The position numbers and the translations under genes are program-made. The notes under the pieces were generated by a model. The model was not told the origin of the DNA, did no database searches, and worked only from the letters and a program-made list of their open reading frames with translations. Below, piece by piece: positions 30,294 to 38,180 of a stretch of 64,000 nt of DNA (position 1 is its first letter; the number at the start of each line of letters is the position of its first letter). The stretch lies in contig NC_013158.1 in the NCBI RefSeq assembly GCF_000023945.1, forward strand, positions 248,001 through 312,000, given 5' to 3'. Source of the DNA: Halorhabdus utahensis DSM 12940 (GTDB lineage Archaea; Halobacteriota; Halobacteria; Halobacteriales; Haloarculaceae).

Positions 30294-30974
30294 TCAGTAT
30301 TCCCAGAGCCGGTCGATACGGTCGCTGATCTCGGGATGGGCGTCACGGAGCGCGTCGGGGTCGGTTTCGCCGTTGACGTTGCTGACGTGAACCTCCCCGC
30401 GGCGGCCGTCGTATCGGTCCTGGAAGTCGTAGACGACGCCCACAACGTCGACGGCTGCCGGGACGTGATCGCTGTCACGGAGGAACTCGACCTGCCGGTC
30501 GACGTTGTACTCGACGAGATGGTCGATCGCGGCCGCGCGGTCCAGGTCCTCGGGGAGAGTCTCGACGCCTGCCCGGAGGTGTGGTTCGAGTATCCCGATC
30601 GAGTGCTCGATACCCGGTGGTTCGGAGATCCCATCAGTCAACGCGTCGTAGGTGGCCGTGACTGCGCCACAGCCGGTGTGACCGACGACGACCGCCGTCT
30701 CGGTCCCCGTGTGTGCGATCGGATAAAGGACGTCCCCCGAGACGACAGATTCGCCGTCGGCGTCCTGGAGGACGCGGTTGCCGATGTTGCTGACAGTAAA
30801 GAGATGGCCCGGGTCGTCATTGCCGAAGAGGTGATCCTGCATGACGCGGGAGTCCGAACAGCAGACTGTCACTGCGTCGGGTCGCTGGCCGTCCTGGAGG
30901 GTGTCGAACCGGTCGTCAAACGCGCTCGCGTGGGCTGTATTGCCGGCAAGCAGCGAACCGAGAACGTCGTGCAT
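30294..30974 (-). CDS. Beta-class carbonic anhydrase
   Basis: A 226-residue zinc enzyme interconverting CO2 and bicarbonate. Ligands are Cys39 with the Asp41/Arg43 dyad (CSDSR, 39-43), His99 and Cys102 (GHTGCG). The active-site loop SNIGNRV is also present. The long open frame extends 181 codons upstream, but that part overlaps the divergent regulator gene antisense; the ATG at 30974 gives the canonical start MHDVLGSLLAGN. It is divergent from the Lrp-type regulator and about 0.9 kb from the dabB-dabA operon, suggesting a shared inorganic-carbon role. Confidence 0.93.
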   Translation of the reverse strand: MHDVLGSLLAGNTAHASAFDDRFDTLQDGQRPDAVTVCCSDSRVMQDHLFGNDDPGHLFTVSNIGNRVLQDADGESVVSGDVLYPIAHTGTETAVVVGHTGCGAVTATYDALTDGISEPPGIEHSIGILEPHLRAGVETLPEDLDRAAAIDHLVEYNVDRQVEFLRDSDHVPAAVDVVGVVYDFQDRYDGRRGEVHVSNVNGETDPDALRDAHPEISDRIDRLWEY

Positions 30975-31038
30975 ACGCGGGCAGAATCGTGCCGGCGGTT
31001 TAGTGGTTGAGATTTGCTTCCGCCGTCCCGCGTCCGAC

Positions 31039-31048
31039 TGTTCGAACA
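31039..31048. promoter_or_regulatory. Perfect palindrome between carbonic anhydrase and regulator
   Basis: TGTTCGAACA, a perfect 10-bp palindrome, just upstream of the TATA-like GGATAAAG (31057-31064) of the Lrp-type gene and about 65 nt upstream of the carbonic anhydrase start. The position suits an operator for autoregulation and joint control. Confidence 0.45.
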
Positions 31049-31088
31049 ACGTACAAGGATAAAGTGTCTCCCTCGCGGAGGCGGGTGT

Positions 31089-31574
31089 ATGGGTGAGACT
31101 GAGATAGACAACGTCGACAAAGCGATCCTCTATGCGCTCCAGGAGGACGCCCGGAACATGTCCTCGGCTGACATCGCCGAACGAACCGGGACCTCCGACA
31201 GCACCGTCCGCAAGCGCATCCAGCGACTCGAAGCCGACGACGTGATCAAGGATTATAGCGCCCGCGTCGACTACCAGCAATCGGGTTATCCGCTCCGGAT
31301 GTTGCTGTACTGTACCGCGTCGATCCCCGAACGCGGGGACCTGATTCCCGACATTCTGGCTATCGACGGCGTCGTCTCCGTCCAGGAACTGGTCACCGGT
31401 GAACAGAACCTGCTCGTCACCGTCGTCGGCGAGTCCGACAGCGACATTACGCCCGTTGCCCAGGAACTGCTCGACATGGGACTGACTGTCGCCGACGAGG
31501 TCCTCGTTCGAGCCCACGAGACGACGCCGTTCGGCAAGTTCGACTCCGGAGCCACGACTGCAGACGATTCCTGA
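31089..31574 (+). CDS. Lrp/AsnC-family transcriptional regulator
   Basis: A 161-residue regulator. The N-terminal winged HTH contains DKAILYALQEDARNMSSADI and GTSDSTVRKRIQRLEADDVI (~8-52). An RAM/AsnC-like ligand domain follows with a typical RMLLYCTAS and VQELVTGEQNLLVTVVG pattern (~75-140). The ATG at 31089 has a TATA-like element about 27 nt upstream. It is divergent from the beta-carbonic anhydrase and 311 nt upstream of dabB, so it is the likely regulator of inorganic-carbon genes. That link is inference. Confidence 0.9.
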   Translation: MGETEIDNVDKAILYALQEDARNMSSADIAERTGTSDSTVRKRIQRLEADDVIKDYSARVDYQQSGYPLRMLLYCTASIPERGDLIPDILAIDGVVSVQELVTGEQNLLVTVVGESDSDITPVAQELLDMGLTVADEVLVRAHETTPFGKFDSGATTADDS

Positions 31575-31885
31575 GGCGTCTCCGGCGTGACGCCGTAGCC
31601 GCTACCGCGGCGAGTCGCGCCAGCACGGCGCCGTCCGTTTCTCGCCGGCGCGTCGTCGATCGCCGCCCGAGTGGCCAAATCCCGTCCCGCGAAACGATCC
31701 CCAGGACGACCTGTGGCGTCTCCCCCGGGAGACCGCACAAACATAACGTTTTATAATAGGATATATTCGATCGGATTGTGACGATAGCAAGATTTAATAA
31801 TCAATCTGTTCTCAAAGATAGTGATTACGACCAGAACGGGATTATACGGCTGAACCGATTCCCGGAACGGTCGTGAGGGACAACG
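31575..31885. other. Long upstream region of the dab operon
   Basis: 311 bases without a gene. The first 170 are G+C-rich with no motif. The rest is A+T-rich, with TATA-like elements TTTTATAATA (31749-31758), GATTTAATAATC (31791-31802, a GATT/AATC inverted repeat) and ATTATACG (31841-31848, about 40 nt before dabB). The multiple elements suggest a regulated promoter, possibly with an untranslated leader. Confidence 0.5.
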
Positions 31886-33370
31886 ATGTCTGGACGCACA
31901 GCGAACGCGACGGTCGGATCGCTCCCGGACACGGCGGCTACGAAGTCGCTTGTGCCCGCAGCACTGACGTGGCTCGTGTGGGCCCTGTTCGCCGCGAGCG
32001 TGGCGACGCTCGTGGCCCAAGTCCGAGCGAATGACGTATGGCGCGTGGCCAACGTGGTCGCGATCGACGGCCTGACTGTCCTGCTGTGGGTCGTCGTGAC
32101 GTTCGTCAGCGGAATCGTCCACAGCTACTCGCGCCGGTACCTGTCGGGGAGCGCTCACGAACGGCGGTTTTTCGTCGCCGTCTTCGGTTTCACAGCGGTC
32201 GTGATGGGGCTGGTCGGGGCCGATCACGTCGTGGTCTTTGGCTTCCTGTGGCTGGTGATGGGTCTGGTGATGGCGGAACTCGTGGGACTCGTTACGGGCT
32301 GGAAGCAAGCCCGGGCGGCCGCGCGCGTCGCCCGCCGGTACTTCCTCGCGAGCGGCGCGCTGCTCGGTCTGGCGCTCGGAGCGTTGTGGTGGGCGACCGG
32401 CGAGCCGACGATCACGGGGATCACCACGGCCACAGACGGCCTCGGCGGGCCGGTGTGGCTGGTAGCCGTCGGCGCGCTGGTCCTCGCGGCGATGATCCAG
32501 TCGGCGCTGATCCCCTTCCACACTTGGTTGCTCGCCTCGATGACCGCGCCCACGCCGGCCTCGGCGCTGATGCACGCCGGGTTCGTCAACGCGGGCGGGA
32601 TCTTGCTGACTCGCTTTGCCCCAGTGGTTGCCATCGACCAGACGGTCATGTTCGCGATCGTCCTCGCGGGCGCTGCCAGCGCACTCCTCGGAAAACTCCT
32701 CAAATCCGTCCGGACTGACGTCAAGGGCACCCTGGCCTGCTCGACGGTCGGCCAGATGGGCTTCATGATCATGCAGGCCGGCCTGGGTTTCTTTGGGGCC
32801 GCGATCACCCATTTGATCCTTCACGGGTTCTACAAAGCCCACCACTTCCTGAGCGCCGGCGAGGCAATCGAGCGCACCACGCCCGGCGAGGAATCCACGG
32901 ACGGACTGGGGCTCGTCGGCATCGCCGTCACGCTCCTCACGGGGCTGGCCGGTGGCGCGCTGTTCGCGGTCCTGACGGGGAAAGGTCTCCACGTCGACGG
33001 CGGCCTCGTGCTCGTGCTGATCGTGGTCGTGACGACGCTACAGGCGACCCGGGAGGTCGTCGCGCGCACGTCGCTGCCGGCTCTGTTCCGGTACGGGGCG
33101 ATCCCGACTGTGTTCCTGCCGGCCATCGCCGTATACGCACTCGTGTATTCGGCCGTTTCGGAGCTGATGGACGGCCTTCCGGTCGTGACGGCACCGACGG
33201 AACTCACCGTCGTCCACGTCGTCGTCGCCGCCGGGTTCGTCGGCGCGTACCTCGCCGTGGAGACCGGCGTCTACGAGCGAAGCCGGCGACTCTACGTGGC
33301 GTTGCTGAACGCGAGTCATCCGTCCGCGCGTACCGTGCTGACTGCCAGGGAGGACTACAATGAGTACTGA
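31886..33370 (+). CDS. dabB: DabB-type membrane subunit of the DAB inorganic-carbon transporter
   Basis: A 494-residue polytopic protein of the NuoL/MrpA proton-translocating family. The antiporter core is seen in LIPFHTWLLASMTAPTPASA, LMHAGFVNAGGILLTRF, the lysine segment LLGKLLKSVRTDVKG and HGFYKAHHFLSAG. It is shorter than NuoL and lies directly before a DUF2309 gene, which defines DabB. In the characterised Halothiobacillus system, DabB couples ion flow to DabA-driven hydration of CO2 to bicarbonate inside the cell. dabA begins within its last codons (11-nt overlap). Confidence 0.9.
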   Translation: MSGRTANATVGSLPDTAATKSLVPAALTWLVWALFAASVATLVAQVRANDVWRVANVVAIDGLTVLLWVVVTFVSGIVHSYSRRYLSGSAHERRFFVAVFGFTAVVMGLVGADHVVVFGFLWLVMGLVMAELVGLVTGWKQARAAARVARRYFLASGALLGLALGALWWATGEPTITGITTATDGLGGPVWLVAVGALVLAAMIQSALIPFHTWLLASMTAPTPASALMHAGFVNAGGILLTRFAPVVAIDQTVMFAIVLAGAASALLGKLLKSVRTDVKGTLACSTVGQMGFMIMQAGLGFFGAAITHLILHGFYKAHHFLSAGEAIERTTPGEESTDGLGLVGIAVTLLTGLAGGALFAVLTGKGLHVDGGLVLVLIVVVTTLQATREVVARTSLPALFRYGAIPTVFLPAIAVYALVYSAVSELMDGLPVVTAPTELTVVHVVVAAGFVGAYLAVETGVYERSRRLYVALLNASHPSARTVLTAREDYNEY

Positions 33371-35777
33371 AGACACCATCGAAAACAGCATCGAGAAGGC
33401 GGCGGCTACCGTCGGGTCCGCCTGGCCGATCCACTCGTTCGTCACAGCCAACCCGCTATCGGGCTTCGAGGACACGCCCTTCGAGAAGGCAGTCCGACAA
33501 GCGGCCGACCTGCTCGGCGGCCGTGGCTACCCCGATCCGGAGACGTTCCGGGCCGCCCTCGACGACGGCCGGATCGACCGCGAGATACTCGAAGCCGAGC
33601 TCGCCGAGCGCGGATACGCGGCGGACCCGGAGTCGTTACTCGACCGCATGGACGTGACCGGGACGTCCGACCGGAGGAAAACGAGGACGTCCGACGGTGC
33701 GGCCGAGCGTGTCGATCACGTCCTGACCAAGTGGCTCTCGGCGTTCCTCGACGAGGGACACGCCGAGTGGTCGATGCCCGACCGCGAAGCGGGGTTCTAC
33801 GCCGCGTTCCGTGCGGTAGCGTCACACGACACACAGATCCCCGAGACCGGACTCGTCGCCGACCTACCCGAGAACGCTCACGACGCCATCGCGGCCATAC
33901 TGGAGTCGTATTCGAAGAGTCAGTGGGTCCCCATCTTCGAGGAGCAACTGGCCGCGTTGCCCGGCTGGACCGGATTCATCAAACGTCGCGCCGAGGACGG
34001 TGACGTCTGGCAGTCGACTGCCCCCAGCACGCTGGCGGACTATCTGGCCGTCCGACTCACACTCTGTGACGCTTTCAGCGTCGACATCGAGCCGTCGATC
34101 GATCCCGGGAGCGAGGCCGACGCGAACGACGATGTCGCCACGGCGTTCCTGCGGGCCTGGGAGCGGAGTTACCGGAGCGAACTCCTCGAAGGCGTCGCGA
34201 CCGAGAGTCGGTCGGTCGCCGGGACCGATCCGTCGGGACGCCCGGCCGCCCAACTGGTCTTCTGTATCGACACGCGTTCGGAGGTCATCCGCCGGCACGT
34301 CGAGGCCACGGGCGACTATGAGACCCACGGCTATGCGGGCTTTTTCGGCGTCCCGATGGAGTACCAGGGCTTCGACGCCGAGCGCTCGGTCGACGCCTGT
34401 CCTCCGATCGTCGATCCACAGCACCGCGTCACGGAGCTGCCGACAGAGACGGAGGCGAGGGCCCGTCACGATCGCTGGGCGCGGCTCCGCGCGGCCGCCG
34501 GCGACCTCGTCGAGACGCTGACGACGAACCCGGCCACCGCCTTCGGCTTCGTCGAGAAGGCGGGGAGCGGATACGGGCTGTCGCTGGCGGCCCGCACGCT
34601 CGTTCCCGCTCGCGTCTCCGACCTCTTCGCGGCCGCCGACGACGTGACTCCGGACGAACACGAGTTCTGTGATCCGCTCGTCGATCACCAGCACACCTAC
34701 GCCGGCGACCTGCCGGTCGGCCTGACCCATGACGAGCAGGTCGAGTACGCCGCCAGCGCCTTCGAGTTGATGGGCATCGAGGAGTTCGGCCGCCTGTTCG
34801 TCTTCGTCGGCCACGCCGCCGAGACGACCAACAACCCTTTCGATTCGAGCCTGGACTGTGGGGCCTGCGCCGGCAACCCCGGCGGCCCCAACGCCCGGGT
34901 CCTCGCGACGATCTGCAACGACGACGATGTCCGGACCGCGCTGTGCGAGCGTGGGGTCGAACTCCCCGAAGACACCGTCTTCCTCGCCGGCGAGCACAAC
35001 ACGACCACCGACGAGATCACCCTCTTCGACGACGCTGTCCCCGAGAGTCACGCCGAGGACCTCGCTCAGTTGCGCGAGGATCTGGCTACCGCTCGCGAAG
35101 GTGCCGCCGCCGAGCGCGCCGCGTCGATGAGTGCGGCGGGGATCGCAGGTGTCGCCGAGACCGAGCGCCGCGCGTCCGACTGGGCGGAGACGCGTCCCGA
35201 GTGGGGATTGGCCGGCAACGCCGGCTTCGTGATCGGCCCCCGCGAGTTGACGAACGATCTCGACCTCGAGGGCCGTACGTTCCTTCACTCGTACGATCAC
35301 ACGACGGACCCCGACGGCGACGCTCTCGCGGCGATCCTTACCGGTCCGATGGTCGTCACGCAGTGGATCAACGCCCAGTACTACTTCTCGACGGTCGACC
35401 CTGCCGTCTACGGCAGCGGCTCGAAGATAACCCACAACCCTGTCGGCAACGTCGGCGTCTACCAGGGCAACGGCGGCGATCTGATGACCGGCCTCCCGCT
35501 GCAGTCGCTGTTTGGGGCCGCCGAGGAGCCCTACCACCAGCCGCTTCGCCTCTCGACGGTCGTCCACGCGCCGGTCGACCGCGTCACTGCGGTCCTGGCC
35601 GATCACGGGGAACTGCAGGAACTACTGGACAACGACTGGCTGTCGATGTCTGTCGTCGATCCGGCCCGGGACCACCGTGTCTTCCACTACGACGGACAAT
35701 GCACCTGGACGCCGGCGACCGAACCGATCGCGGACGAACCGATGGTCCCGGACGCGCCCGCTGTCGGGGACGATTGA
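33360..35777 (+). CDS. dabA: DabA (DUF2309), zinc-dependent CO2-hydrating subunit
   Basis: An 805-residue DUF2309 protein starting with the family sequence PIHSFVTANPLSGFED (23-38). The beta-CA-like zinc site is intact: Cys302 and Asp304 in FCIDTRSEVIRRH, His485 in VGHAAETTNNP and Cys500 in LDCGACAGNPGGPNARV. The spacing (C+2=D, H+15=C) equals that of the Halothiobacillus neapolitanus enzyme (C351, D353, H524, C539 as I recall). It should hydrate CO2 unidirectionally when bound to DabB at the membrane. A 580-codon antisense frame is rejected as shadow. Translational coupling to dabB is evident. Confidence 0.94.
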   Translation: MSTEDTIENSIEKAAATVGSAWPIHSFVTANPLSGFEDTPFEKAVRQAADLLGGRGYPDPETFRAALDDGRIDREILEAELAERGYAADPESLLDRMDVTGTSDRRKTRTSDGAAERVDHVLTKWLSAFLDEGHAEWSMPDREAGFYAAFRAVASHDTQIPETGLVADLPENAHDAIAAILESYSKSQWVPIFEEQLAALPGWTGFIKRRAEDGDVWQSTAPSTLADYLAVRLTLCDAFSVDIEPSIDPGSEADANDDVATAFLRAWERSYRSELLEGVATESRSVAGTDPSGRPAAQLVFCIDTRSEVIRRHVEATGDYETHGYAGFFGVPMEYQGFDAERSVDACPPIVDPQHRVTELPTETEARARHDRWARLRAAAGDLVETLTTNPATAFGFVEKAGSGYGLSLAARTLVPARVSDLFAAADDVTPDEHEFCDPLVDHQHTYAGDLPVGLTHDEQVEYAASAFELMGIEEFGRLFVFVGHAAETTNNPFDSSLDCGACAGNPGGPNARVLATICNDDDVRTALCERGVELPEDTVFLAGEHNTTTDEITLFDDAVPESHAEDLAQLREDLATAREGAAAERAASMSAAGIAGVAETERRASDWAETRPEWGLAGNAGFVIGPRELTNDLDLEGRTFLHSYDHTTDPDGDALAAILTGPMVVTQWINAQYYFSTVDPAVYGSGSKITHNPVGNVGVYQGNGGDLMTGLPLQSLFGAAEEPYHQPLRLSTVVHAPVDRVTAVLADHGELQELLDNDWLSMSVVDPARDHRVFHYDGQCTWTPATEPIADEPMVPDAPAVGDD

Positions 35778-35851: not shown

Positions 35852-36409
35852 GTGAGCGACGACATCACCTCGCGCCACGAGCGCCTTGATCGCCACGACG
35901 TGCCCGGCCCTCGGAACGCCCTCCGGCACTGGATCAAGACGCGCAATCCGCTCTGGATGCTCGTCGTGCCGGCGATCATCTGGGTGCTTCGGCTGGTCCC
36001 GAGCGTCCGCATCAAGAACGTCGTCCTCCGTCTCCTCGGGGCCGAGGTCGGCGAGGGTGTCGCCCTTGCAATGGGTGCGACGCCCGATATGCTCTGGCCG
36101 GACTTGCTTGAAATCGAGGACGACGCCATCGTCGGGTACGACGCAACCTTGCTGTGTCACGAGTATCTCCAGGACGAATATCGCACTGGGACGGTCGTCG
36201 TCGGCGAGCGGGCGATGATCGGCGCGAGTGCGGTCGTCCTCCCCGGCGTCCGCATTGGGGCAGACGCTCAGGTGGCAGCCAACTCCCTCGTTTCGGAGGA
36301 CGTGCCACCGGGTGTGACTGTGGCGGGTGTGCCTGCCGAGGTTGTGAGTCGTCCGGAGGAAACGTCCGGGACGACCGATGAGTCGTCACCTGAAGCGGGT
36401 GACGCCTGA
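35852..36409 (+). CDS. Hexapeptide-repeat acyltransferase-like protein
   Basis: A 185-residue protein with a hydrophobic segment (~34-50, PLWMLVVPAIIWVLRLVP) then a left-handed beta-helix of hexapeptide repeats (GAEVGEGVALAMGA, VVVGERAMIGASAVVLPGVR, IGADAQVAANSLV). It resembles maltose/galactoside acetyltransferase-like enzymes, and gamma-carbonic-anhydrase proteins share the fold. The three-His gamma-CA set is not evident, so an acyltransferase is more likely. It starts with GTG, 74 nt after dabA, and its 3' end overlaps the convergent mscS gene by 24 nt. Confidence 0.75.
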   Translation: MSDDITSRHERLDRHDVPGPRNALRHWIKTRNPLWMLVVPAIIWVLRLVPSVRIKNVVLRLLGAEVGEGVALAMGATPDMLWPDLLEIEDDAIVGYDATLLCHEYLQDEYRTGTVVVGERAMIGASAVVLPGVRIGADAQVAANSLVSEDVPPGVTVAGVPAEVVSRPEETSGTTDESSPEAGDA

Positions 36410-37168
36410 TTGGAAGACGCGCTGGTTCGGGACGATGAACTCGGCGTCGTCGTTTTCGACGTGCGTCACGAACATGTCGATCTCCTGGACGACGCCGCGT
36501 CGATCGCCGATCTCCACCTCGTCGCCGATCGAATAGGGTTCCGACAGCAGCAGGTAGATCCCGGCCGCGCCGGCGGCCAGCAGATGTTTGAACGCCAACC
36601 CGCCCAGAAACAGTATCCCGAAGACGTAGACGCTCAACAGGACGAGCAGGGCCGTCGTTGCGACGCCGAGTTGCCCAAGGGCGACCAGTGCGGCCACGTA
36701 GAAGATACTGTATTTCACGAGCGGGGCCAGGACGTAGATCTGCGGGAGTTTGATGCTACGGAGTCGTTCGCTGACTGCCAGAGAGGCTTTGTCACCCAGG
36801 ATCAGGCCGGCGATCACTGCGAGAGCGGCGATGAACAACTGCGAGAGGTAGGCACTGAATCCGGCCCAGAACTGGGTCGGGTAATTGAGCTGGGCCGTCT
36901 GGATGGCGATGAATATCGCCAGCGCGTACACGAAAATCGCCGCGAGCTGGGCGACCAACCCGACCGTCGAGAACCCGACGTTCTGGAGTGTCCGCTCGAA
37001 GACCGTTCCCTCGACGGCCTCGGGGATCCCAGCCTGTTCCAGAACCGAATGGGTCATGCGCCAGACGAGATAACTGAGAACAGTACCGATAAACAGGACA
37101 AAGATCGCCACGACGACCGCCGTCTCCTCGGAGAAAAGCGTGCGTATGAGATCGGGGATGTCAACCAT
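36386..37168 (-). CDS. MscS-family mechanosensitive channel-like protein
   Basis: A 260-residue membrane protein with about five hydrophobic segments, ending in a short MscS beta domain (EPYSIGDEVEIGDRRGVVQE, VENDDAEFIVPNQRVFQSGV). It probably relieves turgor during hypo-osmotic shock. The C-terminal alpha/beta vestibule of E. coli MscS is missing, which is common among archaeal members. Its ATG overlaps the dacZ stop by 1 nt (TGATG), so channel and c-di-AMP synthase are made together. Confidence 0.88.
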   Translation of the reverse strand: MVDIPDLIRTLFSEETAVVVAIFVLFIGTVLSYLVWRMTHSVLEQAGIPEAVEGTVFERTLQNVGFSTVGLVAQLAAIFVYALAIFIAIQTAQLNYPTQFWAGFSAYLSQLFIAALAVIAGLILGDKASLAVSERLRSIKLPQIYVLAPLVKYSIFYVAALVALGQLGVATTALLVLLSVYVFGILFLGGLAFKHLLAAGAAGIYLLLSEPYSIGDEVEIGDRRGVVQEIDMFVTHVENDDAEFIVPNQRVFQSGVTRFR

Positions 37169-37974
37169 CAGTACTCCTCCGGATCGAGTTCGAGAATCAG
37201 CTCACCGCCTTTGAATGCTCGTACCAGCCCGTCGCTTTCGCTGAGAACGATCGCCGTCGCATTCGTATCCCGCGTCACCGCTCCCGCAGCCATGTGGCGG
37301 GCACCCAGCCCCTTCGGAATGTCGACGCCTTCCGCCGACGGTTCGAGATAGCGGTACGCAGAGACGATCTTCCCCGAGTCGGAGATGACGAACGCGCCAT
37401 CGAGCCGCGAGAACTCCTTGAGCATCACGTTGACGATGGGATCCCCGACGTGGACGTGGGACTTCTCGAATGGATTGTAGCTCAGCGGACGCGACTTGTT
37501 CATCACTTTGCCGGCGTCGCCGACGACGAACAGTGCGCCGACGGGCTTGCCTTTCTGGCCTTTCTTGCCGAGTTCGACGGCGACTTCGAGGACGTTCCGG
37601 ATAACGCCCGGTTCGGCCCGCGAGTTGACGAACAGATCGTAGACGCCGGATTCGACGAACTCACCTGCGCGGACGCGAACGATCGTGTCGAGTTCGTCAG
37701 CGTAGGTCCGCCCCAGGCACAGAATATCGTCCGTTTCCATTACGTACTCCTTTTCGAGCGCACCTTCGACGCCAAATCGGACGCGATCGTCGATGGCCGT
37801 GAAATCCAGCGGCAACTCGACGAAGCGCTCCGCATCAGGGCCGTTCTCCGCGCCAACGACGATGACCGTGTACGCTTCCGCGAGTTCATCATAGAGGCTA
37901 TTGCTCGGCGCAAACAGGAATATAGCGTCGAGATCAGCACTCAACCGTCCCAGCACATCGTCAATCTGACTCAT
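37168..37974 (-). CDS. dacZ: Diadenylate cyclase (c-di-AMP synthase)
   Basis: A 268-residue protein with a C-terminal DAC (DisA_N) domain. The catalytic motifs are LDGAFVISDSGKI (DGA at 192-194) and GLGARHMAAGA (RH at 226-227). The N-terminal ~130 residues are an alpha/beta domain specific to the archaeal DacZ group. It condenses two ATP to c-di-AMP, which is essential and tightly controlled in Haloferax. The ATG at 37974 (MSQIDDVLGRLS) is preferred over a longer frame. It is the first gene of the dacZ-mscS operon, which points to c-di-AMP-linked osmotic control. Confidence 0.94.
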   Translation of the reverse strand: MSQIDDVLGRLSADLDAIFLFAPSNSLYDELAEAYTVIVVGAENGPDAERFVELPLDFTAIDDRVRFGVEGALEKEYVMETDDILCLGRTYADELDTIVRVRAGEFVESGVYDLFVNSRAEPGVIRNVLEVAVELGKKGQKGKPVGALFVVGDAGKVMNKSRPLSYNPFEKSHVHVGDPIVNVMLKEFSRLDGAFVISDSGKIVSAYRYLEPSAEGVDIPKGLGARHMAAGAVTRDTNATAIVLSESDGLVRAFKGGELILELDPEEY

Positions 37975-38180
37975 TGTCCTATTTTCGATCGGACACGAAA
38001 AAAGGGTTGCGGGCGTCAGACGCTCCGCTTCGAGGCACGTCTCGAAGTGGCGACATCGCTGAGAGTCTTCGCCAGCTTCAGCCACTGACTTGCCCGGGAA
38101 CGCGATCCCAATCAAGGGAATGCCGAGAAACGACGCCGCGGACCGCACTTGCTGACCGCCACCATCAAGATATGGACAAC

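Follow-up and report, generated by a model that had tools for sequence, protein, structure and literature searches.

A class-wide Lrp-type regulator and a conserved operator-like element at the dabB-dabA inorganic-carbon locus of Halobacteria

In a 64,000-nucleotide stretch of the Halorhabdus utahensis DSM 12940 genome (hereafter the window), genes for the two subunits of a DabB-DabA inorganic-carbon complex stand beside those for an Lrp/AsnC-type regulator and a β-class carbonic anhydrase (CA), and across the class Halobacteria both the regulator gene and a 43-bp inverted repeat at the dabB promoter accompany dab. We consider it probable that DabAB is a potential-driven CO2-hydration pump that supplies bicarbonate for anaplerosis and is gated by the locally encoded Lrp at this repeat. 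DabAB in haloarchaea or in heterotrophs is not new: HVO_2410/HVO_2411 of Haloferax volcanii were called dabAB in 2021, a prediction from work on H. neapolitanus (PMC8305020), and DACs have been stated to occur in heterotrophic Halobacteria (PMC10880623). What looks new is the dedicated regulator with its putative operator. The passages of PMC8305020 on these genes make the same dabAB prediction and do not mention regulator, operator or CA linkage, and we found neither the Lrp regulator nor its pairing with dab in open-access full text, a scope outside which most subscription journals lie. An earlier note on this DNA was right in its observation and half right in its interpretation, which published work had partly pre-empted; the dedicated regulator and the operator had escaped it.

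The genome, from the Halorhabdus group, is complete as a single contig of 3,116,795 bp (~3.12 Mb), and all four genes of the module described in the earlier note are in place. The CA gene (30294..30974, minus strand) encodes 226 amino acids with a Pro_CA match (PF00484, 96 bits) and intact CxDxR (C39-D41-R43) and HxxC (H99-C102) motifs, as expected of a β-CA; a signal peptide was not evident on inspection by eye. The regulator, which we name DabR (31089..31574, plus strand; 161 amino acids), has a winged helix-turn-helix (HTH) domain (HTH_AsnC-type, 51 bits) followed by a RAM-like C-terminal domain. Beyond a 311-bp gap lies dabB (31886..33370, plus strand; 494 amino acids), encoding a NuoL/MrpA-like membrane subunit (Proton_antipo_M, PF00361, 126 bits), and dabA (33360..35777, plus strand; 805 amino acids), encoding the cytoplasmic β-CA-like catalytic subunit, which matches PF10070 over its full length (887 bits, model positions 1-747 of 747). 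As the note had it, dabA starts inside dabB, with an overlap of 11 bp. Lrp, dabB and dabA are co-directional; the CA gene is divergent from Lrp, and the four genes therefore do not form one operon.

DabA can be aligned (E 1e-106) to DabA2 from Halothiobacillus neapolitanus, a subunit of the DAB2 complex, whose structure is solved (PDB 9rd0). In this alignment Cys302, Asp304, Arg306, His485 and Cys500 correspond to Cys351, Asp353, Arg355, His524 and Cys539 of DabA2, whose alanine mutants impair DAB2 (PMC13144422), and all five are invariant in 61 of 61 haloarchaeal DabAs. The same 61 sequences conserve Glu399, the counterpart of the finger glutamate Glu444. The zinc ligands are intact in both CA (C39, H99, C102) and DabA (C302, D304, H485, C500), as first read. 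The spacing of the characterised enzyme, also ascribed to DabA, is kept locally (C-x-D, H-x14-C) and is not kept between the two halves of the active site, which stand 183 rather than 173 residues apart. The AlphaFold model of DabA is poor (pLDDT 63, pTM 0.42). In DabB, S226, H230, K280, S286, H309, H313 and K317 match the DabB2 proton-path residues S256, H260, K310, S316, H339, H343 and K347, which matter for DAB2 by mutation (PMC13144422), and the seven are invariant in 63 of 63 haloarchaeal sequences. A full-length PF10070 protein with its zinc site, an adjoining NuoL/MrpA-like DabB, the finger glutamate and the residues of the proton path together place the pair, by sequence, among the DAB/DAC complexes.

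One feature of the DAB2 subtype is missing. The TM7 lysine of DabB2, Lys235, is replaced by glutamine in 62 of 63 haloarchaeal DabBs (Q205 in the window), and the column of its ion-pair partner, Asp185, holds S, G or T in 11 aligned haloarchaeal DabBs. Because this pair is absent, ion coupling may differ from that of DAB2. The K235A variant of DabB2 still complements, with a lower yield (PMC13144422). The TM7 lysine is also variable in six aligned bacterial DabBs, so its loss reads as a lineage trait that does not exclude the haloarchaeal proteins from DAB. The haloarchaeal complex thus resembles DAB2 in its two-subunit build, zinc ligands, dyad, finger glutamate and seven proton-path residues, and differs from it, besides the lost ion pair and the 10 additional residues between the active-site halves, in a haloarchaeal host without RuBisCO and in the Lrp-type regulator and often adjoining β-CA.

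Among 391 Halobacteria genomes, DabA is present in 239, β-CA in 351 and RuBisCO in 137. Beyond the class, all DabA matches in a phylum sample of 197 genomes fell within the window’s own order, and none was found in the ~164 sampled genomes outside Halobacteria; the bacterial relatives of DabA that lie on plasmids are mostly 30–38% identical. DabA and RuBisCO are distributed independently (both in 88 genomes, RuBisCO only in 49, DabA only in 151, neither in 103; p 0.39), and a genome-wide search of H. utahensis found no RuBisCO large subunit, which agrees with the earlier impression of no autotrophy. We reject a link of dab to autotrophy through RuBisCO. The accompanying view of DABs as pumps of autotrophs is too narrow, given that MpsAB of heterotrophs is well studied (PMC6689103, PMC8552792) and DACs of heterotrophic Halobacteria are published (PMC10880623). 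The genome contains a PEP carboxylase gene, and the genome search found no biotin carboxylase. With PEP carboxylase present and RuBisCO absent, the supply of bicarbonate for anaplerotic carboxylation, one of the uses first suggested, is the most economical reading; the other, a buffering of CO2 in hot brine, is conjectural. DabA also occurs in 36 of the 40 genomes that lack β-CA, a negative association (p 3e-5) that concerns the β class only and is uncorrected for kinship, and only four of the 391 genomes lack both. Within a single genus, g18, CA is missing from five of the seven genomes with DabA and from none of the six without it. CA and DabA nevertheless occur together in 203 of 391 genomes, about half, more than a strict either/or model would lead one to expect.

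The regulator follows dab closely. In 62 of 63 dab loci examined, from 43 genera, an Lrp gene lies 5' of dabB on the same strand, and the single locus without it begins inside dabB at a contig end. Identity to the window’s Lrp is 66–92% (38 aligned sequences). When close relatives of this Lrp were counted at E below 1e-50, 234 genomes had both Lrp and DabA, one had Lrp only, five had DabA only and 151 had neither, so that the two are concordant in 385 of 391. Contig edges or fragmentary loci mostly account for the six discordant genomes: four of those with DabA only have broken or fragmentary loci, and in the fifth the contig stops before the expected position of the regulator, with an operator-like element present. 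One genome, G128, has a genuine Lrp without DabA, and β-CA is absent from it as well. In the region L188:8623-12061 its Lrp adjoins genes for a CooC-like ATPase and for a CO-dehydrogenase-like protein (prismane/CODH family, 495 bits); an operator-like element was not found near this Lrp. This co-occurrence marks the Lrp as an apparently dedicated, class-wide partner of dab. Separately, a single in-frame stop codon interrupts the Lrp match in five genomes; the match may run past the gene end there, or the gene may really be decaying.

The AsnC-type HTH recognized by Pfam and the β-α-β-β-α-β, RAM-like topology of the C-terminal domain in a medium-confidence model (mean pLDDT 72) assign the regulator to the Lrp/AsnC family. 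The Pfam search gave no RAM-type match for the C-terminal domain, whose conservation over the class comes close to that of the HTH. In a profile search the best solved matches are Lrp proteins of archaea and mycobacteria. The HTH and C-terminal fold are common to PH0140, PH1519, Rv3291c and the halophilic Lrp 8q90, whereas identity to these is ~22–24% (fold search), and the haloarchaeal Lrp forms a subfamily of its own that is found throughout the class and goes with dab. Bacterial dab loci also have neighbouring regulator genes, as those on Methylocystis, Nitrobacter, Pseudoalteromonas, Paracoccus and Phaeobacter plasmids illustrate. There, however, the regulator belongs to the LysR family and is adjacent or divergent, in contrast to the co-directional Lrp/AsnC gene of haloarchaea; a LysR gene lies beside dab in five of six bacterial loci examined, and the Nocardia locus has other HTH genes.

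Upon alignment of the dabB promoters, a 43-bp inverted repeat emerged in 62 of 62 examined. In the window it reads GATCGGATTG-N23-CAATCTGTTC (31769..31811), with the consensus GAACRNNTTG-N23-CANNCTGTTC. Its 10-bp arms lie 33 bp apart and enclose a TATA-like box, GATTTAATA (31791..31799, plus strand), which is probably the dabB TATA box. The aligned promoters follow the pattern GAACRNWTTG ... GATTTAATA ... CANTCTGTTC with a spacing that is fixed in nearly all genomes, and the repeat is perfect in two genomes of the window’s genus. A motif search over the 62 dabB upstream regions gave a 28-mer scoring 1071, compared with 91 for shuffled sequence. Further upstream, the aligned promoters share a third TGTTC-like box, a further half-site of this type that in the window is AACATAACGTTTTATAAT (31740..31757; consensus aacCATAAtGTTCTaTAAt). 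With up to two mismatches allowed, TTTAATANNCANNCTGTTC has one match in the genome, at the dabB promoter. Conservation of a non-coding, single-target element over 43 genera is the pattern expected of a local operator, and its position and co-occurrence with the Lrp make this regulator its candidate binder. Upstream of lrp, the loci share another promoter-like block, which in many of them reads ACGTACAAAGGTAAAGTG, and the GAACA/TGTTC palindrome between CA and Lrp in the window, CTGTTCGAACAA (31038..31049), is weak and not conserved at other loci; we therefore do not claim that Lrp regulates its own gene through the dabB operator. Nor do CA promoters appear to carry this operator, as the short TGTTC/GAACA palindrome pattern matched none of 27 CA upstream regions.

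Of the 63 loci, 27 have a catalytic β-CA near dab, within the stretch examined for each locus; chance would account for ~0.35, as estimated from the size of the genome and the number of CA copies. It is placed divergently 5' of Lrp, convergently 3' of dabA, or co-directionally upstream or downstream. The divergent placement upstream of Lrp is found in all dab genomes of the window’s genus and in two others; the order CA-Lrp-dabB-dabA recurs in six of six dab-bearing genomes of that genus, and Lrp-dabB-dabA is kept class-wide, so the neighbourhood is not unique to this strain. The convergent-downstream form is confined to one clade of the DabA tree. On that tree, seven or more changes between the linked and unlinked states are needed on supported branches, which suggests that the CA-dab linkage arose repeatedly, in several arrangements. 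At six loci, and at L216:203-904, a diverged CA-like protein of ~230 amino acids is encoded between Lrp and dabB; it retains HxxC and has lost the CxDxR dyad (CSMSS or CPMAQ replaces CSDSR), and one of the six loci also carries a catalytic CA. Possibly this is a CA associated with dab that is altered or no longer catalytic. An amidohydrolase gene on the opposite strand occupies the interval between Lrp and dabB at nine loci.

Complexes of the DAB2/MpsAB family hydrate CO2 in one direction, powered by the membrane potential, and trap the bicarbonate (PMC13144422; PMC6689103). By analogy, haloarchaeal DabB would pass ions, most likely protons, down the membrane potential, and this flow would activate the DabA zinc site to hydrate CO2 to bicarbonate in one direction only. 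The bicarbonate would feed heterotrophic carboxylases (PEP carboxylase in H. utahensis) instead of RuBisCO. Lrp would bind the repeat flanking the dabB TATA box and block or gate the binding of TBP according to inorganic-carbon status, shutting down the pump under ample CO2, a direction that presumes repression rather than activation. The β-CA would offer an alternative, passive route to bicarbonate. Cytosolic CA has been argued to undo such a pump (PMC8552792); pump and CA running together would amount to a futile cycle, and this would account for the retention of a switch. Tentatively, the Lrp might itself be the inorganic-carbon sensor, responding to CO2 or bicarbonate either directly or by way of a closely related metabolite, and with one operator choose between the pump and passive CA.

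Amino acids are the usual signals of Lrp-family regulators, so inorganic carbon need not be what this one senses. Lrp could instead respond to amino acids or nitrogen in a feast/famine manner, tying bicarbonate to the demand for aspartate, arginine and pyrimidines rather than to CO2. The predicted HTH and RAM-like fold accord with this, as do nearest solved relatives within Lrp/AsnC, several of them solved with amino acids, and we regard it as possible without being probable: a C-terminal domain too diverged for a Pfam RAM-type match yet conserved nearly at the level of the HTH looks fitted to a specific ligand, and the sole genome with Lrp but no dab keeps the regulator beside CO dehydrogenase genes. 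A further question is what the complex moves. Haloarchaea live on Na+ gradients, and DabAB could use theirs to import bicarbonate with Na+, as in a model proposed for MpsAB, instead of hydrating CO2 with protons. DabB does find its top-scoring match among ‘NADH dehydrogenase subunit 5’ models (PRK08601, 204 bits), which we take to cover the Bacillus/Staphylococcus type of DabB, and it lacks the K235/D185 pair of DabB2; MpsAB itself is argued to be Na+ dependent in work cited by PMC13144422. We nonetheless think Na+-driven import unlikely, since a plain bicarbonate symporter would have no need of the fully conserved zinc site and Asp-Arg dyad, and the conserved proton-path residues and finger glutamate also speak against it.

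The dab genes might, finally, be a redundant accessory whose adjacency to CA reflects shared ancestry of one gene block and not function. CA neighbourhoods do cluster on the DabA tree, the convergent-downstream form being an example. The repeated changes between linked and unlinked states on supported branches, the four orientations or positions of CA and the excess of linked loci over the chance estimate leave this account quite improbable.

Among characterised systems with a heterotrophic host, MpsAB of Staphylococcus aureus is similar in providing bicarbonate for carboxylations and in being interchangeable with CA by complementation (PMC6689103, PMC8552792). Unlike Firmicutes, which rarely combine both systems, haloarchaea often have them side by side, and they add a dedicated Lrp with a predicted operator. 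If the proposed switch is correct, it would be, to our knowledge, the first archaeal transcription switch responsive to inorganic carbon and, besides LysR, a second way of controlling DAB. The results also bear on the puzzle raised in PMC8552792 that some organisms keep an opposing bicarbonate pump and cytosolic CA. What lifts this locus above an ordinary annotation is the regulator with its putative operator and the repeated CA linkage. With a single regulator, a single 43-bp site and a single target operon named, in a class with good genetics (Haloferax, Haloarcula), archaeal inorganic-carbon sensing and management become directly testable.

Directly 3' of dabA, on the same strand, the window encodes a hexapeptide-repeat acyltransferase (35852-36409), for which the best model is heptaprenylglyceryl phosphate O-acetyltransferase, with a score below that model’s cut-off. 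Beyond it, a gene for an MscS-type channel (36386-37168) adjoins that of the diadenylate cyclase DacZ (37168-37977; 484 bits, above the cut-off).
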